Below, piece by piece: positions 14,331 through 28,933 of a DNA stretch of 64,000 nucleotides. Source of the DNA: Brevundimonas sp. (GTDB taxonomy: Bacteria; Pseudomonadota; Alphaproteobacteria; Caulobacterales; Caulobacteraceae). The notes under the pieces are model-generated. The model ran no database searches. It worked only from the letters and a program-made list of their open reading frames with translations, and was not told the DNA's origin. The translations under genes and the position numbers were made by a program. The first letter of the stretch is position 1; each line of letters opens with the position of its first letter. Where the stretch lies: the NCBI RefSeq assembly GCF_013912065.1, contig NZ_JACESA010000001.1, positions 310,001 through 374,000 of the forward strand, given 5' to 3'.

Positions 14331-14405
14331 TCCGCGGTAGCTCAGTGGTAGAGCAGCCGACTGTTAATCGGCTGGTCGTAGGTTCGAATCCTACCCGCGG
14401 AGCCA
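14331..14405 (+). tRNA. tRNA-Asn (anticodon GTT)
   Basis: The acceptor stem TCCGCGG (14331-14337) pairs with CCGCGGA, followed by G and an encoded CCA. The anticodon stem CCGAC/TCGG encloses CTGTTAA (anticodon GTT), and the T-arm GTAGGTTCGAATCCTAC is perfect. Confidence 0.95.
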
Positions 14406-14638
14406 CTCGGTGAAGCCCTTCAAGCTGGGCAGCCCCACTACATCGACATCACGGCCGCCCAGACGGGCGACGCGCGCCTGCGGTTCGCATCGCATGGAGC
14501 GGGCGCCCACGCTCGTGAGGCCGTCGGATTCTGTAAATATGGAAGACGGCCCGCTTCATCGCGGACCTTTGGCGCAATTGCGAAGGGGCCGCCCGAAAGC
14601 GACCCCTTAATCCGCCATACAACCCAAAAAAGGTCAGA

Positions 14639-14839: not shown

Positions 14840-16243
14840 ATGGCTGCGACAAGACTGACGGACCGGACCGTCGCCGCGCTCAAGACTGCCGAGGGCGGGC
14901 GGCTGGAACTCTGGGACACCGACCTGAGAGGTCTCTATCTACGCGTTTCCGGGCATTCAAAAGTCTGGGGCTATCGCTACCGCCGCCCTGACGGGACCCA
15001 GCCCCGTGTCCGCCTGGGCCGGTATGTGTCGCCGGACCAGGCCGGCGGGGACAAGCAGGCGCTGACCGTTGCCGGCGCTCGCGCCAAGGCTCGGAAGCTT
15101 CAGACGGATGTCGATGCCGGCCGTGATCCGGCGATCGAGATTCAGGTCGTCAAGGCCGAGGCCAAGGAACAGCCGCTCCGGACCTTCGACGATATGGCGC
15201 AGGGCTACTTCCAGGCGACTGAGAGCGGAGAGTATCGTCCGAGCAAGAAGCGCAAGCGACCGCCCACGATCCTCTCGGAGCGGAACCTCTACAAGAAGCA
15301 CCTGCGCCCGCTCGCCTCCCTCCGAATCGAGGCGGTCACCAAGGCCGTCGTGCGCACGCGTCTCCGGGACATCCTGCAGGAGGGCAAGGGCGTGACTTCG
15401 AACCGCGCCCGCAGCCTCATCAGCCAGATCTTCGCCTGGGGCATCACCGAAGACCGTGTTCTCAAGAACCCCGCCCAGCAGTTGGACGATCTCGCAGAGG
15501 AAACGCCGCGCACCCGGGTCCTGAACGACACTGAACTGCGGGCGCTATGGCGCGCGCTCGAGGACACGTCAGGCTATCGACGCCCGCTGCCGAACGGCCG
15601 CGACGAGGCCTTGATGGTCAGCCGGCCGATCCGGATCGCGATCCAGCTGGCGGCGCTCCTGCTCCAGCGGCGCGCAGAGGTCGCCGAGATGAGGGTCGCC
15701 GAACTGGACTTCGCCGAGCGGACCTGGACGATCCCGGCGGGGCGCACCAAGGCCAGCCGCACGACCGTCGTCCCGCTCGGCGAGTTCTCGATCCTGCTGA
15801 TCCGGGAAGCCCTGGCGCTGCGCCCGAAACCTGCCGACGGCGAAAAACCCTCGCCTTTCGTGTTCGTCGGCCGCGGCGAGACGCCCGGCGCGATCCATCC
15901 TTCGGCGATCAGCCACGCCATGCGCGACATTCGGGCGGCGATCGACATCCCCGACATCACGGTCCACGATCTGCGTCGCAGCGGTGCGACCCGGCTCGCC
16001 AAGGCGCGGGTCAGCCCCTTCATCCTGTCCAAGCTGCTCAACCACGCCAACGAGCTCGGCGGCGGCTCTTCGATCACGATGTCGGTCTACGTCCAGCACG
16101 ACTATCTGGAGGAGAAGCGCGAAGCGATCGAATGCCTGGAGCGCCTGATCCTCGCCGCGGTGCGTCCTGGAACCGAGCTTGAGGAGCCCCCTCCCCAGGC
16201 CTTGCCGGCGCCGGCGCGATTGCTCTTCCATGAACCGGCTTAG
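14840..16243 (+). CDS. int: Tyrosine-type site-specific integrase
   Basis: A 467-residue integrase. The N-terminal DUF4102-type arm-binding domain (TDRTVAALKTAEGGRLELWD) is followed by a core-binding SAM-like domain and the catalytic domain. Active-site residues are recognisable: Arg in LLLQRRAEVAEM, His-Arg in VHDLRRSGAT, His in LLNHAN and the nucleophilic Tyr in SVYVQHDYLEEKREAIE (the QHDY tyrosine is the likelier nucleophile). The gene lies next to the tRNA-Pro fragment it presumably recognises. Integrases of this class recombine within tRNA anticodon or T-loops, which agrees with the break in the tRNA. Confidence 0.93.
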   Translation: MAATRLTDRTVAALKTAEGGRLELWDTDLRGLYLRVSGHSKVWGYRYRRPDGTQPRVRLGRYVSPDQAGGDKQALTVAGARAKARKLQTDVDAGRDPAIEIQVVKAEAKEQPLRTFDDMAQGYFQATESGEYRPSKKRKRPPTILSERNLYKKHLRPLASLRIEAVTKAVVRTRLRDILQEGKGVTSNRARSLISQIFAWGITEDRVLKNPAQQLDDLAEETPRTRVLNDTELRALWRALEDTSGYRRPLPNGRDEALMVSRPIRIAIQLAALLLQRRAEVAEMRVAELDFAERTWTIPAGRTKASRTTVVPLGEFSILLIREALALRPKPADGEKPSPFVFVGRGETPGAIHPSAISHAMRDIRAAIDIPDITVHDLRRSGATRLAKARVSPFILSKLLNHANELGGGSSITMSVYVQHDYLEEKREAIECLERLILAAVRPGTELEEPPPQALPAPARLLFHEPA

Positions 16244-16316
16244 TGGCCATGGCGAACCGACCGATCTTGAAACCTCAGTCGGCGAGGATTAAATGATCTC
16301 TCAGGAGAGAACAATT

Positions 16317-16946
16317 ATGTCCGCGACCGACCGGCTCTACACTGTCTCTGAAGCTGCCGCGGTAAGCGGTCTCGGGCTCAAAGCGGTCAACAACTCGATC
16401 GACCGCGGGTTGGTGACTGTGGCCGCCGCGCCGAGGACCGGGCGTCTGAAACCCCGGGTTCTGACGGGCGAGGATTTGGTGCGCCTGCGTCTGGAGCACG
16501 GGCTGGCCGGCAAGCTGCCCATCGAGCGCCGGATCGACCTGTTCCGGAGGCTTTCCGCGACGCCCAAGGCCCGACATCTGTCGGCGGGGGAGTTCCTGAT
16601 GGTCGATGTGGCCGCCGCGCGCCGCGACGTCAGCGCCCGGATCAAGACCCTCGCCGAAGCCGAGGCTGCGATCGCGACCGACAAGGCGGTCATGGCAGGC
16701 GAGCCGGTGTTCAAGGGCACTCGTATCCCTGTCCATGCGGTCGTCGCCATGTTGGACGCAGGGGCAAGCGAAGCCGAGCTCCTGACAGGATATCCCAAGC
16801 TGGACGCCCGGCTGATCGGCCTTGCGAGGGTCTGGGTCGCCGCTCATCCCCGCCGGGGCCGCCCCCGTCGGCTTGAGGCGTCGGGTCTCGCCCCCACGTC
16901 GGTGCGGCGTCTGATCCGCAAGACGCCGGCGATGACGGAGCGGTGA
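16317..16946 (+). CDS. DUF433 antitoxin-like protein with N-terminal HTH
   Basis: A 209-residue protein. The first about 60 residues (LYTVSEAAAVSGLGLKAVNN) form a MerR-type helix-turn-helix. The middle holds a DUF433 domain (VFKGTRIPVHAVVAMLDAGASEAELLTGYPKL), and the tail is Arg-rich. DUF433 proteins are usually antitoxins to DUF5615 proteins, and such a gene follows with a 4-bp GTGA overlap. The ATG at 16317 is preferred over 16293 because CAGGAGAG is well spaced before it. Autoregulation through the HTH is likely by analogy with other antitoxins. Confidence 0.82.
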   Translation: MSATDRLYTVSEAAAVSGLGLKAVNNSIDRGLVTVAAAPRTGRLKPRVLTGEDLVRLRLEHGLAGKLPIERRIDLFRRLSATPKARHLSAGEFLMVDVAAARRDVSARIKTLAEAEAAIATDKAVMAGEPVFKGTRIPVHAVVAMLDAGASEAELLTGYPKLDARLIGLARVWVAAHPRRGRPRRLEASGLAPTSVRRLIRKTPAMTER

Positions 16947-17320
16947 ACTTCCTGTTCGACGAGTGCCTGCACACCTCTCTCGTAGAGGTCGCGAACGCCT
17001 TAGGGCATCAGGGCAGTCACGTGAATTGGCTGGGGCTGAGCGGGACGGCCGATTGGGATCTGATGCCCCGCATAATCGACGGCGACTTCACCTTCGTCAC
17101 CAACAACGCCCAGGACTTCCGGCGGCTGTATCGCGACCAGGCTGCGCACGCGGGCCTTGTTATCTTCATTCCTCAATGCCGCCCTGATCAGCAACGCGAG
17201 CTTCTCGAGGCGGCGATCGAAGCCCTTGCCGATGCCCCGGATCCGCTGATCAACCAGGCGCTCGAGCTCGACTTCGAGGACGACGTCATCACGGTCCGAA
17301 CCTACGATCTCCCGGCCTGA
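16943..17320 (+). CDS. DUF5615 PIN-like toxin
   Basis: A 125-residue protein beginning NFLFDECLHTSLVEVANALG, with TFVTNNAQDFRRLY in the middle. This is the DUF5615 Mut7-C/PIN-like fold with conserved acidic residues (D in FDE, N-N-x-x-D) that suggest a metal-dependent RNase. It uses a GTG start overlapping the stop of the DUF433 gene, so the two are translationally coupled as a type II toxin-antitoxin pair. The toxin activity is inferred from the family and pairing. Confidence 0.8.
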   Translation: MNFLFDECLHTSLVEVANALGHQGSHVNWLGLSGTADWDLMPRIIDGDFTFVTNNAQDFRRLYRDQAAHAGLVIFIPQCRPDQQRELLEAAIEALADAPDPLINQALELDFEDDVITVRTYDLPA

Positions 17321-17346: not shown

Positions 17347-17454
17347 CGTCGTGCCGCGCTCCCCCCCCTGAACGATCTGGTCCCCGTGAATATTCTCCGC
17401 TCGCCATCCCGGACGAACCTGCGATCCTCATCGAAAGACCCAAGGAGGTTGGCC

Positions 17455-17994
17455 ATGGATATCTCAAGCGACGATTTTCTCTATCCGGTCAGACGGACGG
17501 GCAAGCGCGGCCGTCCGGCGAATACAGGCCGCAAGGATTTTCACCTTCTCTATGAGATGTGCGCGCGTCTGGCCGCCGATCCGGCCCTTTCGTGGGCCGA
17601 TGCGGCGCGACAGGTCGCGCCGAAATCGGATTACAACGCCTTTGACCGCCTCCCCCGCAAACTGCGGCAATATCCCCGAATGCTGGATCAGGCGAAAGAT
17701 CATCACGAGCGCCAGGTTCAGCGGTTTCTGGCGGAAGCCAAACGGCGAAGGCTCGAAGCCTCCTGGATCGGCCTGAAGTCCAAGGCCTCCGCCATCGCCT
17801 ATCTCCAGATGACCGGATTGATCTCCGCCGACATCTGGAAGGATCCCCGGGTCGTCACCGCCGCAGACGGGTTCTGGCGATACGTTCGCCCCGGGATTGT
17901 CGAGCGCTTGATCGAGGACCATCGCCGGCTGGAGCGGATGATGGGCCAGGTCGACGCCCTTGATCGTCACATGCGCCTATACGCTTCGATCTGA
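17455..17994 (+). CDS. Unknown protein, Arg/Lys-rich, 179 aa
   Basis: A 179-residue soluble protein with a strong Shine-Dalgarno (AAGGAGG) before the ATG at 17455. It is helical and basic, with a Gly/Arg-rich N-terminal patch (RRTGKRGRPANTGRKDF) recalling an AT-hook-like DNA contact. A possible HTH follows (SWADAARQVAPKSDYNAFDRLPRK), and the remainder is predicted mostly helical. I recognise no named family. Its place between a toxin-antitoxin pair and the STAND-nuclease operon suggests a regulator, but that is conjecture. Confidence 0.65.
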   Translation: MDISSDDFLYPVRRTGKRGRPANTGRKDFHLLYEMCARLAADPALSWADAARQVAPKSDYNAFDRLPRKLRQYPRMLDQAKDHHERQVQRFLAEAKRRRLEASWIGLKSKASAIAYLQMTGLISADIWKDPRVVTAADGFWRYVRPGIVERLIEDHRRLERMMGQVDALDRHMRLYASI

Positions 17995-18109: not shown

Positions 18110-18370
18110 ATGATCTTCGATCCGCGATCGCCGCTTCCGCACCGCGTCGCGCCTACGACCGGGACAGATGCGGTCGCGACGCGCGAGGCCGGAGACGTTC
18201 TGGCCCGCATTCAAGCCTTCGCGGGCGGAGAAGCCGAAGCCCTAGCCTGGTATCATGACCAGCCGATTCCGGCCCTCGGCGGGCGAACGGCGGAAACCTT
18301 GGTGAGGATGGGTCAGGGCGCCGCTGTTCGACAGTATCTCGACACCCTCGCGACGGGCGGCTTCGCATGA
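18110..18370 (+). CDS. Short MbcA/ParS/Xre-type (DUF2384) protein without HTH
   Basis: An 86-residue protein whose second half (ALAWYHDQPIPALGGRTAET followed by LVRMGQGAAVRQYLDTLATG) matches the toxin-binding DUF2384 domain of MbcA/ParS antitoxins (W...P.PALGGRT...L...G...V...L..I..G). Such antitoxins normally carry an N-terminal Xre-like HTH and pair with a RES toxin. Here the HTH is absent and no RES gene is near. The next long gene is a STAND-like nuclease, connected through a tiny overlapping ORF. It may act as an inhibitor or accessory of that protein. Confidence 0.7.
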   Translation: MIFDPRSPLPHRVAPTTGTDAVATREAGDVLARIQAFAGGEAEALAWYHDQPIPALGGRTAETLVRMGQGAAVRQYLDTLATGGFA

Positions 18371-18435
18371 ATCGGTCGCGCCTGACCCTTGCGCCAGCGC
18401 CGGCCGAGCCCGGCCGGAGTCTGGAGCGGTCGTGA
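18367..18435 (+). CDS. 22-codon coupling ORF
   Basis: The DUF2384 stop overlaps an ATG (ATGA, 18367-18370). That ATG opens a 22-codon frame whose TGA (18433-18435) overlaps the GTG of the next gene (GTGA). The peptide (MNRSRLTLAPAPAEPGRSLE and two more residues) has no recognisable feature. It may serve only to hand ribosomes from the DUF2384 gene to the STAND gene. Real expression is not proven. Confidence 0.35.
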   Translation: MNRSRLTLAPAPAEPGRSLERS

Positions 18436-21293
18436 CCATCGCCCCTGATCCGCCCAGCCCCCTCGCGGTTCTTGATCCAGCCCAGCTCGGTCGCATCGAG
18501 AACATGCATCGCGGCTTCCTCTATCAGCACCTCTACGCCGTTCAGTGCCTGCTCGCCGCCGCCGCCGCGGGCGCAACTGCCGTCGCCGTCGAAGGCGACG
18601 AAGATGTGGAACTGATCTTTCCCGACCGACGCGCCTATCTCCAGGTCAAGCATCGACTGAACCCTCTCGCCGGCTCCGATGTCGATGAGGCGCTCGAACG
18701 GTTCGCCGCGCTTCGCAAGGCCCATGCGACGGGCAATCGGGACGGATCATCGCAATTCTTCATCGTCTCGACCTCCGCCCCGAACGCTCCCCTCGCCGCT
18801 CGGATGGCCGCGCCGGACTGGCCCGCCGACATCCTCATCCTCTGGCCCGGCTGCGACGTCCAGGGCGACGGCGTCCCGCAACCGCTTCCCTCCCTCCTGG
18901 ACGCCTTCGCGGCCGCCTGCGGACTGGCCGCGACGCTCCCCTTCGCCATGCTGACGTCGGAGACCCTGGTGTGGAAACTGGCCGGCCTCGTCACCCTGGC
19001 CGCGACGGGGCAGGATGAAACCCTGAACCACGTCTTCTACACCTCGACCCTGCCCGCCCTGTTCGAGCAGATGATTCTCCAGCTCCAGGATCTGCCGGCT
19101 CCGCCGTCTCCCTACCGGGTGCAGGCCCAGGAGCCCGACTTGACGAGTGAGGACCGCATTCGGCTGATCGTGGGCCATTCTGGAGCGGGCAAGACCTCCT
19201 GGGTCGCCCAGGCCGCCCAGCATGCGCCAGGCGCCGTCGTCTATCTGGACGTGATCGACACCCCGGCGCCAAATCTGACCAATACGGTCGCTCGCGAAGT
19301 CGCCGGTCGTCTGTTCGGCCGCGGAGGCGGGCGTCTGGGCGAGGTTCTGATTCCCGGAGCCTCGGGTCGGGACATTCTGCTCGGGATCGGCCGGCGCCTC
19401 GCCGAGACGAGGACCCAGGCCGTGCTCGTCCTCGACAATGCGCATGTGGTTGGCGCGGACGCCCTCACCTCGCTGGTCCAGGCGACGGCGCCGATGTCGG
19501 TGGTCCTCCTCTGTCGGCCTGATCCTGACCTGAACCTGGTGGAGGCCCTCACCGGAGCTCGCCGGGAGGTCCTCGGCGGCTGGTCCCCGGACACGATCGC
19601 GGCCGAGGCGCATGATCGGGGTTGTCGCGCGGGCCCGGGGTCGGCTCAGCGTCTTCTCGACCTAACGGGCGGCCTTCCGCTCTACGTCCAGAACGCCATG
19701 ACGATCGCCGCGGCCGACTACGCCGGCTCGGTCGAGGATTTCTGTCGAGATCTGGCCCTCGCCGCCCAGACGGTCGACACCGCTCAGGAGTTGATCCTGG
19801 GGCGTGTCTTCGACGGCTTTGACGCGTCCACTGCCCAGGTCGCCGACCTGCTGTGCCTGAACGATATCCCACTCAAACGCGCGGACCTTCTGGAGTACGT
19901 CGCCCTCGCGGTCGGCCGGGAGGGCCCGGACGTGACCGCCGCCCTGCGCAAGCTTCAGGGTGCGGGTCTGCTGCAAACCTTCTCCGGGGATCGGGTCAAA
20001 ATCCACGACGCCGCCAAGGTGGTCGGCAAGGCGCGGCTCCTCGCCGCCGGGCCCGAGACGATCGGCGCCTACCGTCGCGCGCTTCAGACCGTAATCCTCA
20101 AGACGCTTCGGTCAGACTGGAGTTTCGCCAAGCTGGCGCTGTTCCTGCGCCTGACCGGCGACATCGGCGACTACGAGATCCTCGTGGAAATGGCGGCCGA
20201 CGAGCATTTCCACGAACTCGGCCTGTGGCCCGAAATCGAGGCCTATATCGACAGGGTGGCCGCCGACGTCGCGGTCCCGGCCCGGCAGAGGGTGGTCGCC
20301 CTCGACGGTCTGGTCTTCGCTGACCTGAAGTATGGCCCGCCGGACAAGATCATGACGCGGCTCGACCTGATGGATCGGCTCATCGCCGACCACGATCTGG
20401 GATGGGAGGAAAACCTTCGCGCCGGCATGAAGCGAATGAGCGCCCTGGCGACGTCGACCGACCGGAAAGGGGCCCGGGCCCAGATCGAACGGCTTGAGCG
20501 GGAGATGGCGAAGGCTCCGGAGGACCATCGCCGGATCTTCCGATACAACGCTGCGGTCGCGCGCTTCCAACTCGGCGATCTTGACGCGGCCGAAGACGAG
20601 CTCGCCACGATTGTCGGCGAATACTACCGCCTCGTGGGGCTGACGCCGCAGTTGGTGATGGGGCGCAATTCGGACGCCCTGCGGCCCCTGCTGCGCAAGA
20701 CCGACACCCAGGTCGACGACGTCAAACATCTGGCCGACAGCCTCGACGCACTGGCCAAGGTCAAGGACGCCAAGGGCTCGTTTTCCCCCTTCGTGCGGAT
20801 CCACGCCCTGAAGTTCTACGAACTCGTCCAGTCCGCCGAGTCCCTGCTGAGGGTCGGACAGGACCTGGTCGATTCATACGTCTGGCATCACGACTTCGCC
20901 GGCGCGCGCCAGTTCATGGAATCGACCCTTTTGCCGCAACTCGCCCAGTTCAAACTGGCCGACTACATGGTGACGGTCCGGTCTCACTACGCGGTCGTCC
21001 TCGCCTACTGCCGGGCGTTCGACGAGGCGGATCGCGAAATGGCGCGCCTTCAACCCTATGTCCCCGGCCTGCCGCCCCTGCAGCAGAAGGAGCTGCGCGA
21101 CCAGGCCAGGCTGATCGCCGAACTGCGACGCGACGGTCCGCCGCCCCAACGGCCCATTCCGGCCGGTCTCCCCGACCGCTTCGAGCCGATGCCTGCGCCC
21201 GCCGCCGATCTGGCGCCCCGAAACGAAAAGGTCGGGCGCAACGACCCCTGCCCCTGCGGTTCAGGCCGAAAATTCAAGAAGTGCTGCCTCTAG
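18432..21293 (+). CDS. STAND-like NTPase with N-terminal Cap4/DUF4297-like nuclease and SEC-C tail
   Basis: A 953-residue multidomain protein, probably antiviral. Residues 20 to about 220 look like a Cap4/DUF4297-type PD-(D/E)xK nuclease: GFLYQ near residue 33, VEGDEDVELIF (53-63) and LQVKHR with Q71-x-K73. A P-loop VGHSGAGKT follows at about residue 248, and a Walker B strand VLVLDNAH with D335. The region from about 550 to 900 is helical and TPR-like, as in the sensor of STAND NTPases. The last 17 residues form a SEC-C zinc motif (C940, C942, C951, C952). This order resembles Avs antiphage proteins, but the SEC-C tail is unusual. Start is GTG, coupled to the preceding 22-codon ORF. Confidence 0.8.
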   Translation: MTIAPDPPSPLAVLDPAQLGRIENMHRGFLYQHLYAVQCLLAAAAAGATAVAVEGDEDVELIFPDRRAYLQVKHRLNPLAGSDVDEALERFAALRKAHATGNRDGSSQFFIVSTSAPNAPLAARMAAPDWPADILILWPGCDVQGDGVPQPLPSLLDAFAAACGLAATLPFAMLTSETLVWKLAGLVTLAATGQDETLNHVFYTSTLPALFEQMILQLQDLPAPPSPYRVQAQEPDLTSEDRIRLIVGHSGAGKTSWVAQAAQHAPGAVVYLDVIDTPAPNLTNTVAREVAGRLFGRGGGRLGEVLIPGASGRDILLGIGRRLAETRTQAVLVLDNAHVVGADALTSLVQATAPMSVVLLCRPDPDLNLVEALTGARREVLGGWSPDTIAAEAHDRGCRAGPGSAQRLLDLTGGLPLYVQNAMTIAAADYAGSVEDFCRDLALAAQTVDTAQELILGRVFDGFDASTAQVADLLCLNDIPLKRADLLEYVALAVGREGPDVTAALRKLQGAGLLQTFSGDRVKIHDAAKVVGKARLLAAGPETIGAYRRALQTVILKTLRSDWSFAKLALFLRLTGDIGDYEILVEMAADEHFHELGLWPEIEAYIDRVAADVAVPARQRVVALDGLVFADLKYGPPDKIMTRLDLMDRLIADHDLGWEENLRAGMKRMSALATSTDRKGARAQIERLEREMAKAPEDHRRIFRYNAAVARFQLGDLDAAEDELATIVGEYYRLVGLTPQLVMGRNSDALRPLLRKTDTQVDDVKHLADSLDALAKVKDAKGSFSPFVRIHALKFYELVQSAESLLRVGQDLVDSYVWHHDFAGARQFMESTLLPQLAQFKLADYMVTVRSHYAVVLAYCRAFDEADREMARLQPYVPGLPPLQQKELRDQARLIAELRRDGPPPQRPIPAGLPDRFEPMPAPAADLAPRNEKVGRNDPCPCGSGRKFKKCCL

Positions 21294-21347: not shown

Positions 21348-23237
21348 TCACGCGCGTCGGCGGCCGGGCTTCGGAGCCATCTCCACGGCCCGCAAGGCGT
21401 CGCGAAGCGTGTGACGATCCACGGTGTAGTCCCAGGGATGCCGACCTTGGCACTGATTGTTCCCGGTGTGCAGAAACCAATCCGCCAGATCTCCGAAACG
21501 CGCCTCCGCCGCCTTCTCCAGCTCGGCCCGAACCTCGGCCGCGAGGTCGTCCAGAGCGGCTTGCGCCTTCAATCGGCGCTCGATCTCCGCGAGATCCCGC
21601 CAGGCGCGGTCGCGCTCGGCCGGCTCCGTCTCCAGCGCGGCCCGGCGCGGCGCCACCCATCGCTCCCCCTCGCGGCTCCCCATCAAATGGACCGCATGCG
21701 CTGCGACCCGGTCGACGAGCTGCAGGCGGGCTTGCCGCTCGGCTTCCGCCTTCTCGGCGGCCGCCGCCGCCTCGCGGGCCTCTCGCCTCTCGACACCACG
21801 CTGGACCGCGCCTTGAAGGGGCAGCCCCAGAAAGGCGTCGCCGCTCCAGCGCCCGCTCCACCCGACGGCGGCCTGCAATCGATCAAGGACATCGTCGAAC
21901 GCATCGAACGCCGCTTCACCGCATAGCCGCTCGAGCGGTCGCCCGAACCCGGGTATTGGCGCGACCTCCCATCGCGCCAGGTCGAAGCCAGCGCGCTCCT
22001 CCTCGGTCGCAGCCGCCAGCAGGCCTTCGAGCCGCCGCCTGGACCGCGCAAGCTGTTCAGCCCGCAGGCGCTCGCGGGCCTGCGCCGCCTTGACCGCTTC
22101 GCCGAAGACCGGCCGACGTTCCCAGCGATCCGGGTCCATCAGGTGAAGCGGCCCCAGCTTCGTCACGGCCTGGAGATATCGCTTCACAAGCGCCTGGGGG
22201 CTGCGGAAGCCCGGGCGGGCGCGAAGGAGCGCCCGATGCGTCTCGACCTCGAGAAGCTCTTTGAATGCGGACCGGACCAGGCCGCTGCGCCGAACCCAGG
22301 TCACCGCCGTCACCAAGGAGAATCCCGGCTTGTAATAGTCGTCGATTTGATCGCCGAGGACGTAGCGATGCGCCAGGACGGCCTGCCATTCCTCGGTGGG
22401 AACCGAGAAGACCGCGTCGTCGCCGACCTGGACGGCGCACAGCCGCCCCTCGCCGATCGCCCGAAGGGCTGTGATGGCCGCGGAGCCCTCGGCGTGGGAG
22501 GGGCGCGCCGGGCCGGCCGCGTCAAGGCCTGAAAGCATCGCCGCCGCCCGGGCGTCCGCCATGGCCTCGGCTTCAGCCTTGAGGACCAGTGTTTCTTGCT
22601 CCTGCCGCGCATTGTAGAGCCAAACCCGGGGCGCCGCGCGCAGCACCGCCTCATGGATCGCCTCAAGGGAGCGATGCTTCCACCGTCCAAGGTCGATCTC
22701 GATGGCGGCGTGCCGTCCTTTCCGAATGCGGGCGATCTTCTCCGGCCCGCAGCCGTGAGTGACCTTGATCTCGACCAGGAGTTCGTGGACCTGGCCCGTG
22801 GCATTCACCTTCCTGAGGACGACATCGGGGGTTAGCCCGTCCATGCGGTATTCGACCTCCACCTCGTCGAAGTTCAGATGGCCCTCCGGAGAGATTTCGC
22901 GTTCCGCTCCGCCGTACTCGGCCACGACCGCCGGTAGGGTCAGGGTCAGGGCGGCGGCGAGGGCCGCCTTGGCCTCATAGTGGGCCGATGTTTCCTGCCA
23001 GGCCCCGCAGATCCGCGCTCCGGGATGGTGAGCGAAATGTTCGACCCGTCCTTTCGGCCCCTTTCGGGCGATCAGGGGCGAACGGCAATCCGGCGCCGGA
23101 CACAGAAGATCTTCGTCGAAACCACTGTCGACCGCGCGGACGTGGACGGTGCGCCCGTCGGATTTGCGAAACGCCCAGACGAGGCTCGCGAACGGCGACC
23201 CGTATTTCGCATGCGCGCCATCTCTTCGTTTCGCCAT
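21348..23237 (-). CDS. CoiA-like nuclease-domain protein
   Basis: A 629-residue protein. An N-terminal zinc-binding segment (C46, C51 with His in VEHFAHHPG near 66-73) is followed by a PD-(D/E)xK nuclease core with D138 in LTPDVVL and E156-x-K158 in LLVEIKVTHG. This combination is typical of CoiA-related proteins. The remaining about 400 residues are helical and Arg/Ala-rich with long coiled-coil potential. Classical CoiA acts in DNA uptake, but here it lies in ICE cargo convergent to the STAND gene, so a defence or DNA-processing role on incoming DNA is more likely. Confidence 0.72.
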   Translation of the reverse strand: MAKRRDGAHAKYGSPFASLVWAFRKSDGRTVHVRAVDSGFDEDLLCPAPDCRSPLIARKGPKGRVEHFAHHPGARICGAWQETSAHYEAKAALAAALTLTLPAVVAEYGGAEREISPEGHLNFDEVEVEYRMDGLTPDVVLRKVNATGQVHELLVEIKVTHGCGPEKIARIRKGRHAAIEIDLGRWKHRSLEAIHEAVLRAAPRVWLYNARQEQETLVLKAEAEAMADARAAAMLSGLDAAGPARPSHAEGSAAITALRAIGEGRLCAVQVGDDAVFSVPTEEWQAVLAHRYVLGDQIDDYYKPGFSLVTAVTWVRRSGLVRSAFKELLEVETHRALLRARPGFRSPQALVKRYLQAVTKLGPLHLMDPDRWERRPVFGEAVKAAQARERLRAEQLARSRRRLEGLLAAATEEERAGFDLARWEVAPIPGFGRPLERLCGEAAFDAFDDVLDRLQAAVGWSGRWSGDAFLGLPLQGAVQRGVERREAREAAAAAEKAEAERQARLQLVDRVAAHAVHLMGSREGERWVAPRRAALETEPAERDRAWRDLAEIERRLKAQAALDDLAAEVRAELEKAAEARFGDLADWFLHTGNNQCQGRHPWDYTVDRHTLRDALRAVEMAPKPGRRRA

Positions 23238-23915: not shown

Positions 23916-25889
23916 TTAGACCGGCTCGCCGGATGCTGCGCCGGCGTCCGCCTCGTCCGGCCAGTCATCGGGCACGAGGGCCGGCGGCTTGGTCCAGGGC
24001 TGCTCGACCAAGGACCGCTGGAACCAGTCGTCCCGCAGGTTGGCATGCTCCGTCACGATAATCTGGAAGCCCGGCGCATCGGTCTCTCCAAAGCGGCGAA
24101 GCACCTCGAACAGACGACGAACCGCTTCGAGGTCGGCGTCCGTTTCGGTTTTCTCGATGGATCCGCCAGCGGCCGCATAGACGTTCTCTGACGGGAAATA
24201 GACCTGGGTCGGCTGGTCGATGAGAAGAAACCGCGGCAGGGGCTGCTGGGCGCCGACGGCGAACCGATGGAGGGCCAGGAGCGCCGCGAGGTGGTAGGCG
24301 AGATGGTTCTCGCCGCCGCCGGTTCGGGGCATGTAGATCGGCCGGCTGGGCCGGTCGATGACGACGGTCAGATTGTGGAGATCCAGCCTCGCGGGGTACT
24401 GGCCGAACTCGCCGCCGAGATCGGTGATGTAGCGCGACATATGCATGGCGATGTTGTTCAGCGTCGAGGCCAGCCGCTCGCCGGAGTCGTCCGCCCCAAT
24501 CCCGCGTTCGAGGTCGTCCGCCCGGGCCTTGAGGCGGCGCTCTTCGGCGACAAGCCGGGCCATTTCCACCTCGGGAACCAGATTTTCGAGAAACAGGCTG
24601 ACGCGGCCCACCACCCGTGAGGCGGCATTGTTGCGATTGCCCATCTGGGCGATCGCCTCGTTCGAGGCGATGGCGGCCGAGAGCTCGAGCTCCTTGGTCC
24701 GGATCTGATCGCCGACCGACTGCAGATCCGACCGCTGCGCGACGAGGTAGGCGTCCAGCGCCGGGCGTTCGCCGCGCACGGCGTTCATCTCGCCTTCGAG
24801 GGATTCCAGTTCCGCTAACAGGAGGCCGGCGATCGGACTCGACAGGGCGAGGTTGGCCTCGGCGAAGGGCCATTGCCATTCGCCGGTGTCACGATTGGTG
24901 GGTAAGGCTTTAATCGAGGCCAGCCGATCGCGCTGCTCGTTCGCCTCGCTTTGGAACCCTTCGGATCTCTGGGCGAACTGCAGGGCGGCCTCGATCCTGC
25001 GCTGGATTTCGCGCCGTCGCTCGCGCAGGCCGTAGAGCTCCGTCTCAATGGCGGCGACCCTTTGCCCGTCGTCCTCGGGAACCGGGGTCGGGCTCCAGGC
25101 CAGGGCGCTTCGCAGCAGATCGACCACCGGCTCGCCTGCGCCCCGGTCCGAGGCGAAGATGCCGACGCTCCGGGCCTCCGAAAGCAGACCGAGCGCGCGT
25201 TCTTCAGAGGTTTCGACGGCGCCCCTCGCCTGCTCGAGCAGCTTGCCGTTCAGGCGCCGGTCGCGCTGGACGGTCCGGAGCTGCGCTTCGAGCTCGTAGC
25301 GGTTGCGCGACGAAACCCCGAGAAGGATCGGCAGGGTGTCCTTGATCGCCTGCGGCTGGTACGGCTCGTTCTGCCGATAGAAGAGCTGATCCTTGTTGGC
25401 CACGATCGTCTGCTTCTGGAACAGATAGTAGACGGTGTGTTTGATGTTGGCGTCGTAGCTCTCTCGGCTATGTTCGAGCGGAACCGACGTGCTGTTGTCA
25501 GGAATGCCGAGCATGCGCGACAGCAGGGTCTCCACCCCGCTATCGTCGTCGTTGACGAGAAGCTCGTCGAACTCGGGAACATCGATCTCGGAGCCTCGAC
25601 GCACCATAGCCGTGCTGCAACTCGCACGGCCGGCGCCGGGCGACGGTTTGGCGACCAGAACCTGCTCGCCGGGGAACTGGTAGATGACGGCGAACCAGCT
25701 CACCCGATCCCGTATGATGCCCTCCGGGATGTTGAAGCTCGATCGCCCCATGCAGTATTCGATGATCTCGGACAGCGCCGATTTCCCCGTAGAGGAGCGG
25801 CCCGTGATCACATTCAGACCATTGAGATGAAAGGCCAGATCGCGCCGACGGCCATCGTAGCTGTAGAGGTGGATCGACTTGATCTTCAT
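23916..25889 (-). CDS. ABC-3C system ATPase (DUF3732)
   Basis: A 657-residue SMC/RecN-like ABC ATPase. Walker A is GRSSTGKSAL (about residues 31-40). A long coiled-coil middle (about 170-440) separates it from the C-terminal half with signature TGGGENHLAYHLAALLALH and Walker B RFLLIDQPTQVYFPSEN, the hallmark of DUF3732. These ATPases drive three-component ABC conflict systems proposed to sense nucleoprotein and release an effector. Its ATG overlaps the stop of the middle-component gene by 4 bp, and a third component lies before that, so the operon is complete. Confidence 0.88.
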   Translation of the reverse strand: MKIKSIHLYSYDGRRRDLAFHLNGLNVITGRSSTGKSALSEIIEYCMGRSSFNIPEGIIRDRVSWFAVIYQFPGEQVLVAKPSPGAGRASCSTAMVRRGSEIDVPEFDELLVNDDDSGVETLLSRMLGIPDNSTSVPLEHSRESYDANIKHTVYYLFQKQTIVANKDQLFYRQNEPYQPQAIKDTLPILLGVSSRNRYELEAQLRTVQRDRRLNGKLLEQARGAVETSEERALGLLSEARSVGIFASDRGAGEPVVDLLRSALAWSPTPVPEDDGQRVAAIETELYGLRERRREIQRRIEAALQFAQRSEGFQSEANEQRDRLASIKALPTNRDTGEWQWPFAEANLALSSPIAGLLLAELESLEGEMNAVRGERPALDAYLVAQRSDLQSVGDQIRTKELELSAAIASNEAIAQMGNRNNAASRVVGRVSLFLENLVPEVEMARLVAEERRLKARADDLERGIGADDSGERLASTLNNIAMHMSRYITDLGGEFGQYPARLDLHNLTVVIDRPSRPIYMPRTGGGENHLAYHLAALLALHRFAVGAQQPLPRFLLIDQPTQVYFPSENVYAAAGGSIEKTETDADLEAVRRLFEVLRRFGETDAPGFQIIVTEHANLRDDWFQRSLVEQPWTKPPALVPDDWPDEADAGAASGEPV

Positions 25890-26374
25890 GGCCTGATCCC
25901 CAGGGTCGAATAGACGGTCGCCCGATCGCCGATCCGGGCGAACTCGCGACCGAGAAACCGCGCCACCCTCTGGCAGGACACCGTTTCGGGTGTGCCGTCG
26001 ATGGTCTTCTTGACCCCTTCCGGCGTCGTCGTGAGCCGTCCGTCCTCGCTGACGGAGATCACGCCGAGATGCATCAGAAATCCGAGCGCCTCAAAGGCGA
26101 AGGGCAGAAGGTCTGTCGTGCGTTTGGAGAAATCGACGAGCATCTGCGGATTGGCCGCGACGATCTTCAGGAAATAGCTGCGATTGGCTTGGGCGAGCGT
26201 TTCGCGGGCTTCGCGCTGTAGGCAGAGCGGCAAGACCACCAGGCTGAGGGAGAACGGCATCCCGCGCGGGTCCTCCTCCTCGTAGCCCCGCAACGCCCTG
26301 AACAGGATCAGGCCGCAGAAGGCCGGATTGAAGAGATTTCGGATCTCGATGGGGCGCAGGTCCCACCGCTTCAT
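25886..26374 (-). CDS. ABC-3C system middle component
   Basis: A 162-residue protein of the middle-component (DUF6521-type) family. NLFNPAFCGLILFRALRGYE near the start and a wHTH-like helical C-terminus (LGVISVSEDGRLTTTPEG) are characteristic. The middle component is thought to bridge the ABC ATPase and the effector-bearing subunit. It overlaps both neighbours by ATGA, which enforces equal expression of the three parts. Confidence 0.82.
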   Translation of the reverse strand: MKRWDLRPIEIRNLFNPAFCGLILFRALRGYEEEDPRGMPFSLSLVVLPLCLQREARETLAQANRSYFLKIVAANPQMLVDFSKRTTDLLPFAFEALGFLMHLGVISVSEDGRLTTTPEGVKKTIDGTPETVSCQRVARFLGREFARIGDRATVYSTLGIRP

Positions 26375-27582
26375 GCGGCGACCCCGAGCAGCTCGCCCAA
26401 GCGCCGCATGAAGGCGGGGTTCCAGTGCACCCGGGGCGTGGGCCGGGCGTTGGCGAGGATCTGGAAGGCTCCGCGGACGACATAGGGTTCCGTCACCCGT
26501 TCACGGATGCGCAGTTCGCCGGTCTCGAACTCCGCCCATTTGTAGAGCTCGCGACCGGCGGCCTTGAAGGCCGCGTCCTCGCTGGTCTCGGGCAGGGCCT
26601 CGAACACGATGTCCCGATAGCGGCTCCATTCCTCGACCAGACGATCCTCGTACTCCTCCATCTCGCCGGAGATCAGAAGGCTCTCCCTGGCCCAGCTCGA
26701 GCGCTGTTCGAAGGCCCGGTAGTAGTCGATGATCGCGTGCTGGATGCGATTGGTCGACAGGTCCAGATCCCGAAGCTGCTCGACGAACAGTCGCGTGTCG
26801 TTGGCCACGTCGATCTCGCCGTCGGGCAGACGGTTGCGGAAGGTGATCGGGAGGTTGTCGGAACGATATTCCTCGGCGATCGCCGACAGCTTGTCGGAGA
26901 CTTCCTGTCCCCCGACGGCGGTCGCCCGCTCCCCGGACAGCAGCTTGATCATGAGATCCGTCCACCACCCCTCCAGCCGCTCAAACAGGGGCTGGCGGGC
27001 CTCGCGGCGCACCGTCCGGAGATGTCGGTCGAGCACAGCTTGGGGGATTTGCTCCACACGGGGGCTGCCGTCGAAGATGGTGATACGGCGATAAAAGTCG
27101 TCGCGCTCAAGATCCGACATCGGCTCCAGCAAGGCGCGGACCTTGTCCGCCGTCTGCGATTGGCTGCGGCCCAGCAAGGTCGCGGCCGTCTCCGCGCGCC
27201 TAGCCGCCTCTCCGTTTTCGGAGAAGACGACCAGGGCGGTTCCCTCCCCCAATGTCGCCGTCGTGAACAGGACGAAGTCGGCGTTGCAGGCGACCCGGCC
27301 ATTGTCCCCATAATAGGTCAGCCAGACCCGCACCGACTTCCAGAAATCGGCGTCCAGATCGGTCAGGCGATCGCCGGCGGCCTTGTGTTTGAGAGAGGCC
27401 AAGGACTTGCGGCCGCCCACCTCATCGAACTCCAGGTCGTCGCTCTTTTCAATGTGAAGCGAGGCGCTCTCCGGCAGCGACAGGATTTTGAGCAGCGCCA
27501 GACGCGGTTGATAGAGGAACCCGAGGCCGGACTCGGCCGCCGAAAAGATCGACTTCGCCTCCGTCACGCCCTGCCCTCCCAT
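26371..27582 (-). CDS. ABC-3C effector subunit with Cap4-like nuclease domain
   Basis: A 403-residue protein. Residues 15 to about 180 form a Cap4/DUF4297-like nuclease: GLGFLYQPRLALL, then IEKSDDLEF (44-52) and SLKHKA with K65-x-K67 in place of the usual QxK. The C-terminal about 220 residues are the ABC-3C C-terminal domain (DNLPITFRNRLPDGEIDVAN), ending with helical GELLGVAA. It is first in the three-gene operon and presumably degrades DNA when released by the ATPase and middle component. A GTG at 27567 with a strong GGGAGG upstream is an alternative start. Confidence 0.8.
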   Translation of the reverse strand: MGGQGVTEAKSIFSAAESGLGFLYQPRLALLKILSLPESASLHIEKSDDLEFDEVGGRKSLASLKHKAAGDRLTDLDADFWKSVRVWLTYYGDNGRVACNADFVLFTTATLGEGTALVVFSENGEAARRAETAATLLGRSQSQTADKVRALLEPMSDLERDDFYRRITIFDGSPRVEQIPQAVLDRHLRTVRREARQPLFERLEGWWTDLMIKLLSGERATAVGGQEVSDKLSAIAEEYRSDNLPITFRNRLPDGEIDVANDTRLFVEQLRDLDLSTNRIQHAIIDYYRAFEQRSSWARESLLISGEMEEYEDRLVEEWSRYRDIVFEALPETSEDAAFKAAGRELYKWAEFETGELRIRERVTEPYVVRGAFQILANARPTPRVHWNPAFMRRLGELLGVAA

Positions 27583-27708: not shown

Positions 27709-28860
27709 TCACCGCCAGGACACGGCAGGGTCTCGCGACGGAACGAGACCGCAGCGCCGGATGTCGCGGTTCGATAGCATCAGGTTCATCCCGATGCCGC
27801 GGTGCGCCTGAGGGCCGTCCGCCAGACGTCTGAACACAGCGACAGACCCAGGCGGAGGCGGATGTCCCGCCAGAACATCGCGCACATGACGCATCGCGAA
27901 CCCGGCCAGGAGATCCGCCACCTGGATGCCGGCCAGGCCGCCCGACGGCACAAAGGCCAGATTTCCGGTCTCACCGAACCGGTAGTCGGCCCGCTCGAAG
28001 ACGATCTCTTCGCCTTCGCCCGCCAGGCCTTCGGCCGACGCCTTCGCCGAGGCGAGGATGTCGGCGTAGTAGCGCTGCTCATCGTGAAGAATACGAACGC
28101 CGTCCAGTCGGCTGTTCCTCAAGCGATTGATGCGGGCGTACAGGCTCGTGAAGGCGGACAGATGCGGCAGGACCCATACCGGTTTGCCGGTATGCCCCGG
28201 ATCCGGAAGCGGCAGGAAGCGGCGTTGGACTTCCGGCCGGCGCGGCCCCTCCTTCCGGAAATCCTTGAGGCTGTCGAGCGTGATGAACCGCAGCGCCCCC
28301 GCGGGCGTGTCTCTCGAGATCGACGGCGGTATCCAGTCGAGGATGGCGCGAAACGCGGCCTTGATGGCGGCCTCGGAGGGCTGGCGACAGGCGTCGAGGA
28401 ATGCATCGTACACTGCGGTCGGCGCGGCGTCGTGAAGGCATTCGGCCAGTTGCGCACGAAGCCAATAAGCTTTCGGATTCCTGTCCGACGGTCCGACAGG
28501 CCGCATCACCAGGGTGCTGGTCATCGTGGCGGCCAGGGTGAACCGCTTGTCCATGACCTCCATCAGGATCGTGGCCTTCACCCTTTCCAGGACGTCGAGT
28601 AGATCGGCGACGGCGGCCGGACTGGCGTGACCGGAGGCGGCCTTCAATTCGGCGGCTTGCGGGAACCGCCTTTGGCGGATCGACTCGACGGCTTCGTCGA
28701 GGGCGGCCTCCTCGTCGCACCCGACCGCCGCCAGGACGAAGACCGGCTGGTTGCGAAAGTCCAGGGAGGGACCAGCGGTGGCCAAGTCTCCCCCCTGACC
28801 GCTCTCGTCCATGTAGTAGGTCAATGGCGCGTCTTCGACCAGGTCGTTGGCGCTGATCAT
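27709..28860 (-). CDS. DUF3800 protein
   Basis: A protein of about 383 residues with the DUF3800 hallmarks. The N-terminal YYMDESG supplies acidic residues of an RNase H-like fold, and IQVADLLAGFAMRHV near the C-terminus supplies the last aspartate. DUF3800 proteins are common in defence and mobile DNA and are suspected metal-dependent nucleases; no activity is established. The ATG at 28860 is preferred, with one at 28902 possible. It lies between the ABC-3C operon and the DprA-like operon, all on the same strand, with gaps that suggest its own promoter. Confidence 0.78.
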   Translation of the reverse strand: MISANDLVEDAPLTYYMDESGQGGDLATAGPSLDFRNQPVFVLAAVGCDEEAALDEAVESIRQRRFPQAAELKAASGHASPAAVADLLDVLERVKATILMEVMDKRFTLAATMTSTLVMRPVGPSDRNPKAYWLRAQLAECLHDAAPTAVYDAFLDACRQPSEAAIKAAFRAILDWIPPSISRDTPAGALRFITLDSLKDFRKEGPRRPEVQRRFLPLPDPGHTGKPVWVLPHLSAFTSLYARINRLRNSRLDGVRILHDEQRYYADILASAKASAEGLAGEGEEIVFERADYRFGETGNLAFVPSGGLAGIQVADLLAGFAMRHVRDVLAGHPPPPGSVAVFRRLADGPQAHRGIGMNLMLSNRDIRRCGLVPSRDPAVSWR

Positions 28861-28933
28861 CCTGTGAGACCGGGATACGCCGGGAGGTGCGCTCGCGAGC
28901 ATCGACCGGCGTCGATCTTGGCACGCTTCAACA

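Follow-up and report, generated by a model that had tools for sequence, protein, structure and literature searches.

Among described defence systems, the closest to the protein considered here are the Avs1-Avs5 (AVAST) proteins, in which an N-terminal effector is followed by a central STAND NTPase and C-terminal helical repeats; in Avs1-4 the effector is a nuclease, reported to cut DNA of phage and host upon binding phage proteins (PMC12931631). STAND proteins are closed with ADP, open with ATP and undergo assembly (PMC6468293), and in AbpA a nuclease is joined to a HamA-like region and accompanied by a partner ATPase (PMC10732053). The 64,000-nucleotide stretch of Brevundimonas sp. DNA that we analyzed (the window) encodes a 953-residue protein combining a Cap4-type nuclease, a STAND switch, a helical region and a SEC-C motif. 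This protein is probably a stand-alone, immune-receptor-like STAND nuclease, with the 86-residue DUF2384 open reading frame (ORF) upstream being a decayed antitoxin, the intervening 22-codon ORF probably no gene, and neither being needed.

Pfam assigns AAA_22 (E 1.3e-7) and SEC-C (E 2.6e-9; 37.2 bits against a cut-off of 20.4) to the 953-residue protein, and PADLOC returns LmuA (E 2.1e-6) at residues 27-116 together with matches confined to SEC-C. Family profiles searched against PDB sequences, a predicted model (mean pLDDT 88.3, pTM 0.73) and the fold matches obtained with that model reinforce the nuclease and STAND assignments. The Cap4-like nuclease, P-loop NTPase core, helical sensor-like region and SEC-C end proposed in the initial annotation are thus all supported by profiles, model and fold matches. 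Within its core, the nuclease carries the catalytic Asp, Glu/Gln and Lys of a Cap4-type enzyme as D58, Q71 and K73, which are invariant in alignments of 60 and 73 rows and whose spacing (D-x12-Q-x-K) equals that of Asp-45, Gln-58 and Lys-60 in AbpA. The STAND switch has the NBD-HD-winged-helix fold, with a P-loop, a Walker B Asp, a GxP motif in the HD and a winged-helix His near the phosphates. Family alignments show K254, D335, P416 and H525 to be invariant and G414 to be kept at 90% or more, and H525, which forms part of an H525-D526 pair in the winged-helix domain, aligns with His-382 of PH0952, the winged-helix His of the STAND switch (PMC6468293). The SEC-C end contains the CxC...C[CH] zinc motif, and CxCxS is found close to the C-terminal end in 63 of the 86 full-length rows (84 loci, the window and L004). 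In the predicted model, the linker preceding SEC-C (residues 914-932) has pLDDT below 50 at residues 914-916 and 918-932, and is probably flexible.

The domain order of Avs proteins (effector, STAND, C-terminal repeats) is reproduced in the model and fold matches of the 953-residue protein. It differs from them, however, in adding a SEC-C tail; the fold match to EfAvs5 is weak (Foldseek 8.5e-4), the Avs3 row has a root-mean-square deviation of 34, and no Avs-named model occurs among its PADLOC or NCBIfam matches at E ≤1. PADLOC, NCBIfam and Pfam contain no whole-length model for the protein, which is matched in pieces only. PH0952 (6mfv), a STAND protein with a tetratricopeptide-repeat (TPR) sensor, differs in that no Cap4-type nuclease or SEC-C was matched in it. 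AbpA and LmuA share the Cap4-type nuclease fold and the D-x12-Q-x-K residues, but where the 953-residue protein has a STAND switch, they have HamA-like (AbpA) or other regions and partner ATPases. Among the papers listed, we found no description linking SEC-C to phage defence or to STAND proteins, in a literature that excludes supplements, all preprint-only work and most subscription papers, the last of which means that a prior description is possible; the searched passages of PMC7159879, PMC8195603 and PMC13092281 gave no match to SEC-C. The nuclease-STAND-helical family, usually ending in SEC-C, is widespread and apparently unnamed, and its architecture was not met in the libraries and literature searched. 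The suggestion that a SEC-C end and an antitoxin-like partner distinguish this protein from Avs survives for SEC-C but fails for the partner, because the pair is not conserved (see below).

The 953-residue protein is conserved beyond what chance would give, as its 86 full-length rows show, and its relatives are spread patchily. Genome searches yielded at least 92 loci, of which 80 were kept, and 23 plasmid records match the protein at ≥80% coverage. In the family tree, which spans seven phyla, the window groups with 11 alphaproteobacterial rows as their sister, with support 100, the deep parts being unsure because of long branches. Close kin seldom carry the gene: long matches occur in 3 of 299 genomes of the bacterial family (its own, G097 at 38% and G089, where the match is partial and at a contig end), and the nuclease profile is positive in 2 of 150 relatives, its own genome included. 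In E. coli the gene is present in 48 of 5,426 complete genomes (35 with ≥80% coverage), at 50 chromosomal places and one on a plasmid. In E. coli G3/10 (L146), the relative resembles transposon cargo, adjoining UvrD/ATP-dependent nuclease genes and a Tn7-like TnsA-TnsE set, and one further E. coli relative lies close to a split antitoxin and a pair of integrases. A scan of viral contigs with the single 953-residue protein gave no match, and two records in a phage collection match it. One of the two, filed as phage (L046, MT836905.1), agrees with an Agrobacterium plasmid both in its STAND protein, which is identical, and in the lengths of the neighbours, and is probably a plasmid fragment.

The three ORFs are present as the initial annotation gave them, joined by ATGA and GTGA overlaps at 18110-21293, an arrangement which it took to suggest an operon with tight stoichiometry. 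Were this correct, the DUF2384 protein, the 22-residue peptide and the STAND nuclease would act jointly, with the DUF2384 protein serving as an antitoxin that holds the nuclease in check, and both the close co-directional spacing and the seemingly intact toxin-binding domain of the DUF2384 protein are consistent with such an arrangement. Scanning the flanks of 95 relative loci (four of which hold less than 1 kb upstream), however, revealed no DUF2384 gene adjoining a STAND gene, and the pair is therefore not conserved, an outcome that the initial annotation had itself named as refuting its reading. Non-adjacent DUF2384 genes are seen in three of these loci, 1.8-3.6 kb from the STAND gene: in L047 the gene lies upstream at a distance of 1.8 kb, separated from the STAND gene by a RES and a Peptidase_C92 gene, in L040 it is about 2.2 kb away on the opposite strand, and in L036 it is 3.6 kb away. 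These finds are partly by construction because all three loci, like the window, were among the 12 seeds of the DUF2384 hidden Markov model; phmmer with the 86-residue protein alone recovers only L047. Across the 95 flanks, RES occurs in L047 and as a remnant in L033. Moreover, PF09722 is absent among the best 25 of 42 families in 97 small proteins encoded upstream of the relatives; whole-genome searches find it somewhere in 29 of 48 host genomes, a count not used for adjacency. The 22-codon ORF is likewise at chance level, given that 345 of 470 ATGA, GTGA or TTGA sites on the plus strand of the window, and 335 of 490 on the minus strand, open at least 22 codons. It is probably not a gene. Nor did we retain the view that a lost RES gene began here: similarity to the RES N-terminus is not detectable, 273 of 500 shuffles scoring as well, and the other two frames also fall within the shuffles. 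Being expected by chance and lacking RES similarity, this ORF renders the overlaps uninformative on stoichiometry. The flank scans led us to reject the DUF2384 protein as a partner of the STAND nuclease, and joint action of the three products is highly improbable, the more so as relatives of the 86-residue protein pair with RES toxins.

That protein matches Xre_MbcA_ParS_C (PF09722) over residues 37-81 (E 4e-8; 33.6 bits against a cut-off of 24.5) and is as much as 62% identical to antitoxins annotated elsewhere. Its relatives possess an N-terminal part absent here, similarity beginning only near residue 12. The relative of the 86-residue gene shares 4 bp with the RES toxin gene at three plasmid loci with annotation, and in L128, L131 and L134 a RES frame begins inside the same overlap; RES adjacency is thus counted for six relatives, with L129, L130, L132, L133 and L136 not being counted. 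In the window, the ATGA junction and the conserved antitoxin end are both retained. As the initial annotation had noted, helix-turn-helix and RES partner are both missing: Pfam finds no helix-turn-helix family in the protein at E ≤1, no RES frame lies near the gene, and the 3.54-Mb genome (45 contigs) contains no PF08808 match. Sharing PF09722 with RES-Xre modules but lacking their helix-turn-helix and toxin, the protein is a RES-Xre-type antitoxin reduced to its toxin-binding end, probably a decayed remnant. The same retained domain, the missing helix-turn-helix and toxin and the RES-free genome would also fit an orphan kept, independently of the STAND gene, to neutralize RES toxins brought in by plasmids or phages; decay accounts for these facts equally, however, and we consider anti-addiction unlikely.

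Several observations count against a stand-alone defence nuclease. The Cap4_nuclease (PF14130) match of the 953-residue protein (E 0.0042) scores below the Pfam cut-off, and the profile E-values relating its nuclease part to LmuA and AbpA are modest. SEC-C is absent from 23 of the 86 full-length rows, and is therefore not essential to the family. Models for type IIG restriction, GajB, LmuA, AriA and DRT are matched by PADLOC near relatives, although these counts, taken from 106 of 168 chosen neighbour proteins, stand without a control set. Our searches turned up neither phage tests nor biochemical work on family members. In addition, while relatives of the gene are solitary or flanked by varied genes, a Peptidase_C92 gene lies just upstream in 8 of the 11 sister-clade rows, so that some members may need a partner, and this gene is a possible conserved partner in that clade. 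The switch itself counts MalT (8bob, which we take to be MalT) and AfsR among its best matches, as might be expected if the protein were a DNA-processing switch in host stress or regulation; its N-terminal nuclease in place of a DNA-binding output domain and its patchy, mobile, island-borne spread nevertheless make such a role very unlikely, and a stand-alone immune-receptor-like nuclease remains the preferred reading.

A Peptidase_C92 gene (YiiX-like, about 425 residues) directly precedes the STAND gene in L033, L047, L048, L049, L052, L054, L055, L056 and L084, its identity being based on Pfam for L049 and on BLAST clustering for the other loci. We discarded it as a missing partner in the window, where tblastn gives no match at E ≤1.

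The 953-residue gene sits within an island bounded on the left by tRNA-Asn and carrying a tyrosine integrase (Table 1). DNA common to the window and five genus relatives ends at 14408-14410, directly past the tRNA gene. Neither an attachment repeat nor a right island end was found, the window yielding only short imperfect repeat families (best 20 of 27). The DUF433 and DUF5615/PIN-like genes are likely a toxin-antitoxin pair. A 202-residue ORF at 17386-17994 (+) has no match in Pfam or in the plasmid collection, and a 629-residue protein at 21348-23237 (-) matches CoiA_N weakly (0.0016); further CoiA-like genes lie near the relatives L042, L043 and L053. Both this CoiA-like gene and the Lamassu-like set belong to the island. 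The STAND gene and the neighbouring Lamassu-like set both carry Cap4-type nuclease parts, and a DUF3800 gene follows that set at 27709-28902.

Table 1. Features of the locus and its surroundings, in window coordinates
Feature	Position	Strand	Remarks
86-residue DUF2384 ORF	18110..18370	+	ATG start within longer open frame; Pfam PF09722
22-codon ORF	18367..18435	+	ATG start; no Pfam match
953-residue STAND nuclease gene	18432..21293	+	GTG start; Pfam, 86 full-length rows, tree, model, fold matches
Cap4-type nuclease core	residues 16-137, 18477..18842	+	
Nuclease residues	D58 18603-18605, Q71 18642-18644, K73 18648-18650	+	Invariant
STAND switch (NOD)	residues 243-539, 19158..20048	+	P-loop 248-255, Walker B D335, GxP 414-416
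TPR-like helical region	residues 541-901, 20052..21134	+	Presumed sensor
SEC-C motif	residues 936-952, 21237..21287	+	Pfam SEC-C 2.6e-9; SecA and YchJ chain matches
tRNA-Asn, left edge of island	14331..14405	+	Context
Tyrosine integrase of island	14840..16243	+	Pfam Phage_integrase 2.9e-18, Arm-DNA-bind_3 1.2e-14
DUF433 and DUF5615/PIN-like genes, short overlap	16293-17320	+	Island genes
Lamassu-like LmuB-LmuC-LmuA, separate neighbour genes	23916..27582	-	PADLOC LmuB 2.8e-121, LmuC 4.4e-13, LmuA 6.8e-62

From work on PH0952, MalT, Apaf-1 and the Avs proteins, we infer an ADP/ATP cycle, assembly, a phage trigger, DNA cutting and killing. At rest the STAND switch would be closed on ADP and held shut by the helical C-terminal region, until binding of a component of a phage or other invader to that region opens it. 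ATP would then take the place of ADP and protomers would assemble, and the clustered N-terminal Cap4-type nucleases would cut DNA, so that infection ends because DNA is lost or the cell dies. Carried on a probably flexible linker, the SEC-C tail may be an accessory docking or metal-binding module. The SEC-C tail of SecA has docking partners, and by analogy with SecA and YchJ the tail might aim the STAND nuclease by docking it on a host machine such as the ribosome, SecB or another protein, an idea that we regard as unlikely. If it were true, the receptor would watch translation or newly made proteins and fire on phage interference there; to our knowledge, no Avs protein is known to work as a STAND immune receptor docked in this way.

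Correcting the operon assignment spares others from testing a false partner. The compact STAND nuclease family (about 950 residues) reaches across seven phyla and into 48 of 5,426 complete E. coli genomes, and because the 953-residue protein is small and its switch lies near those of PH0952, MalT and Apaf-1, it could be a tractable model for how such receptors stay shut and what SEC-C adds.
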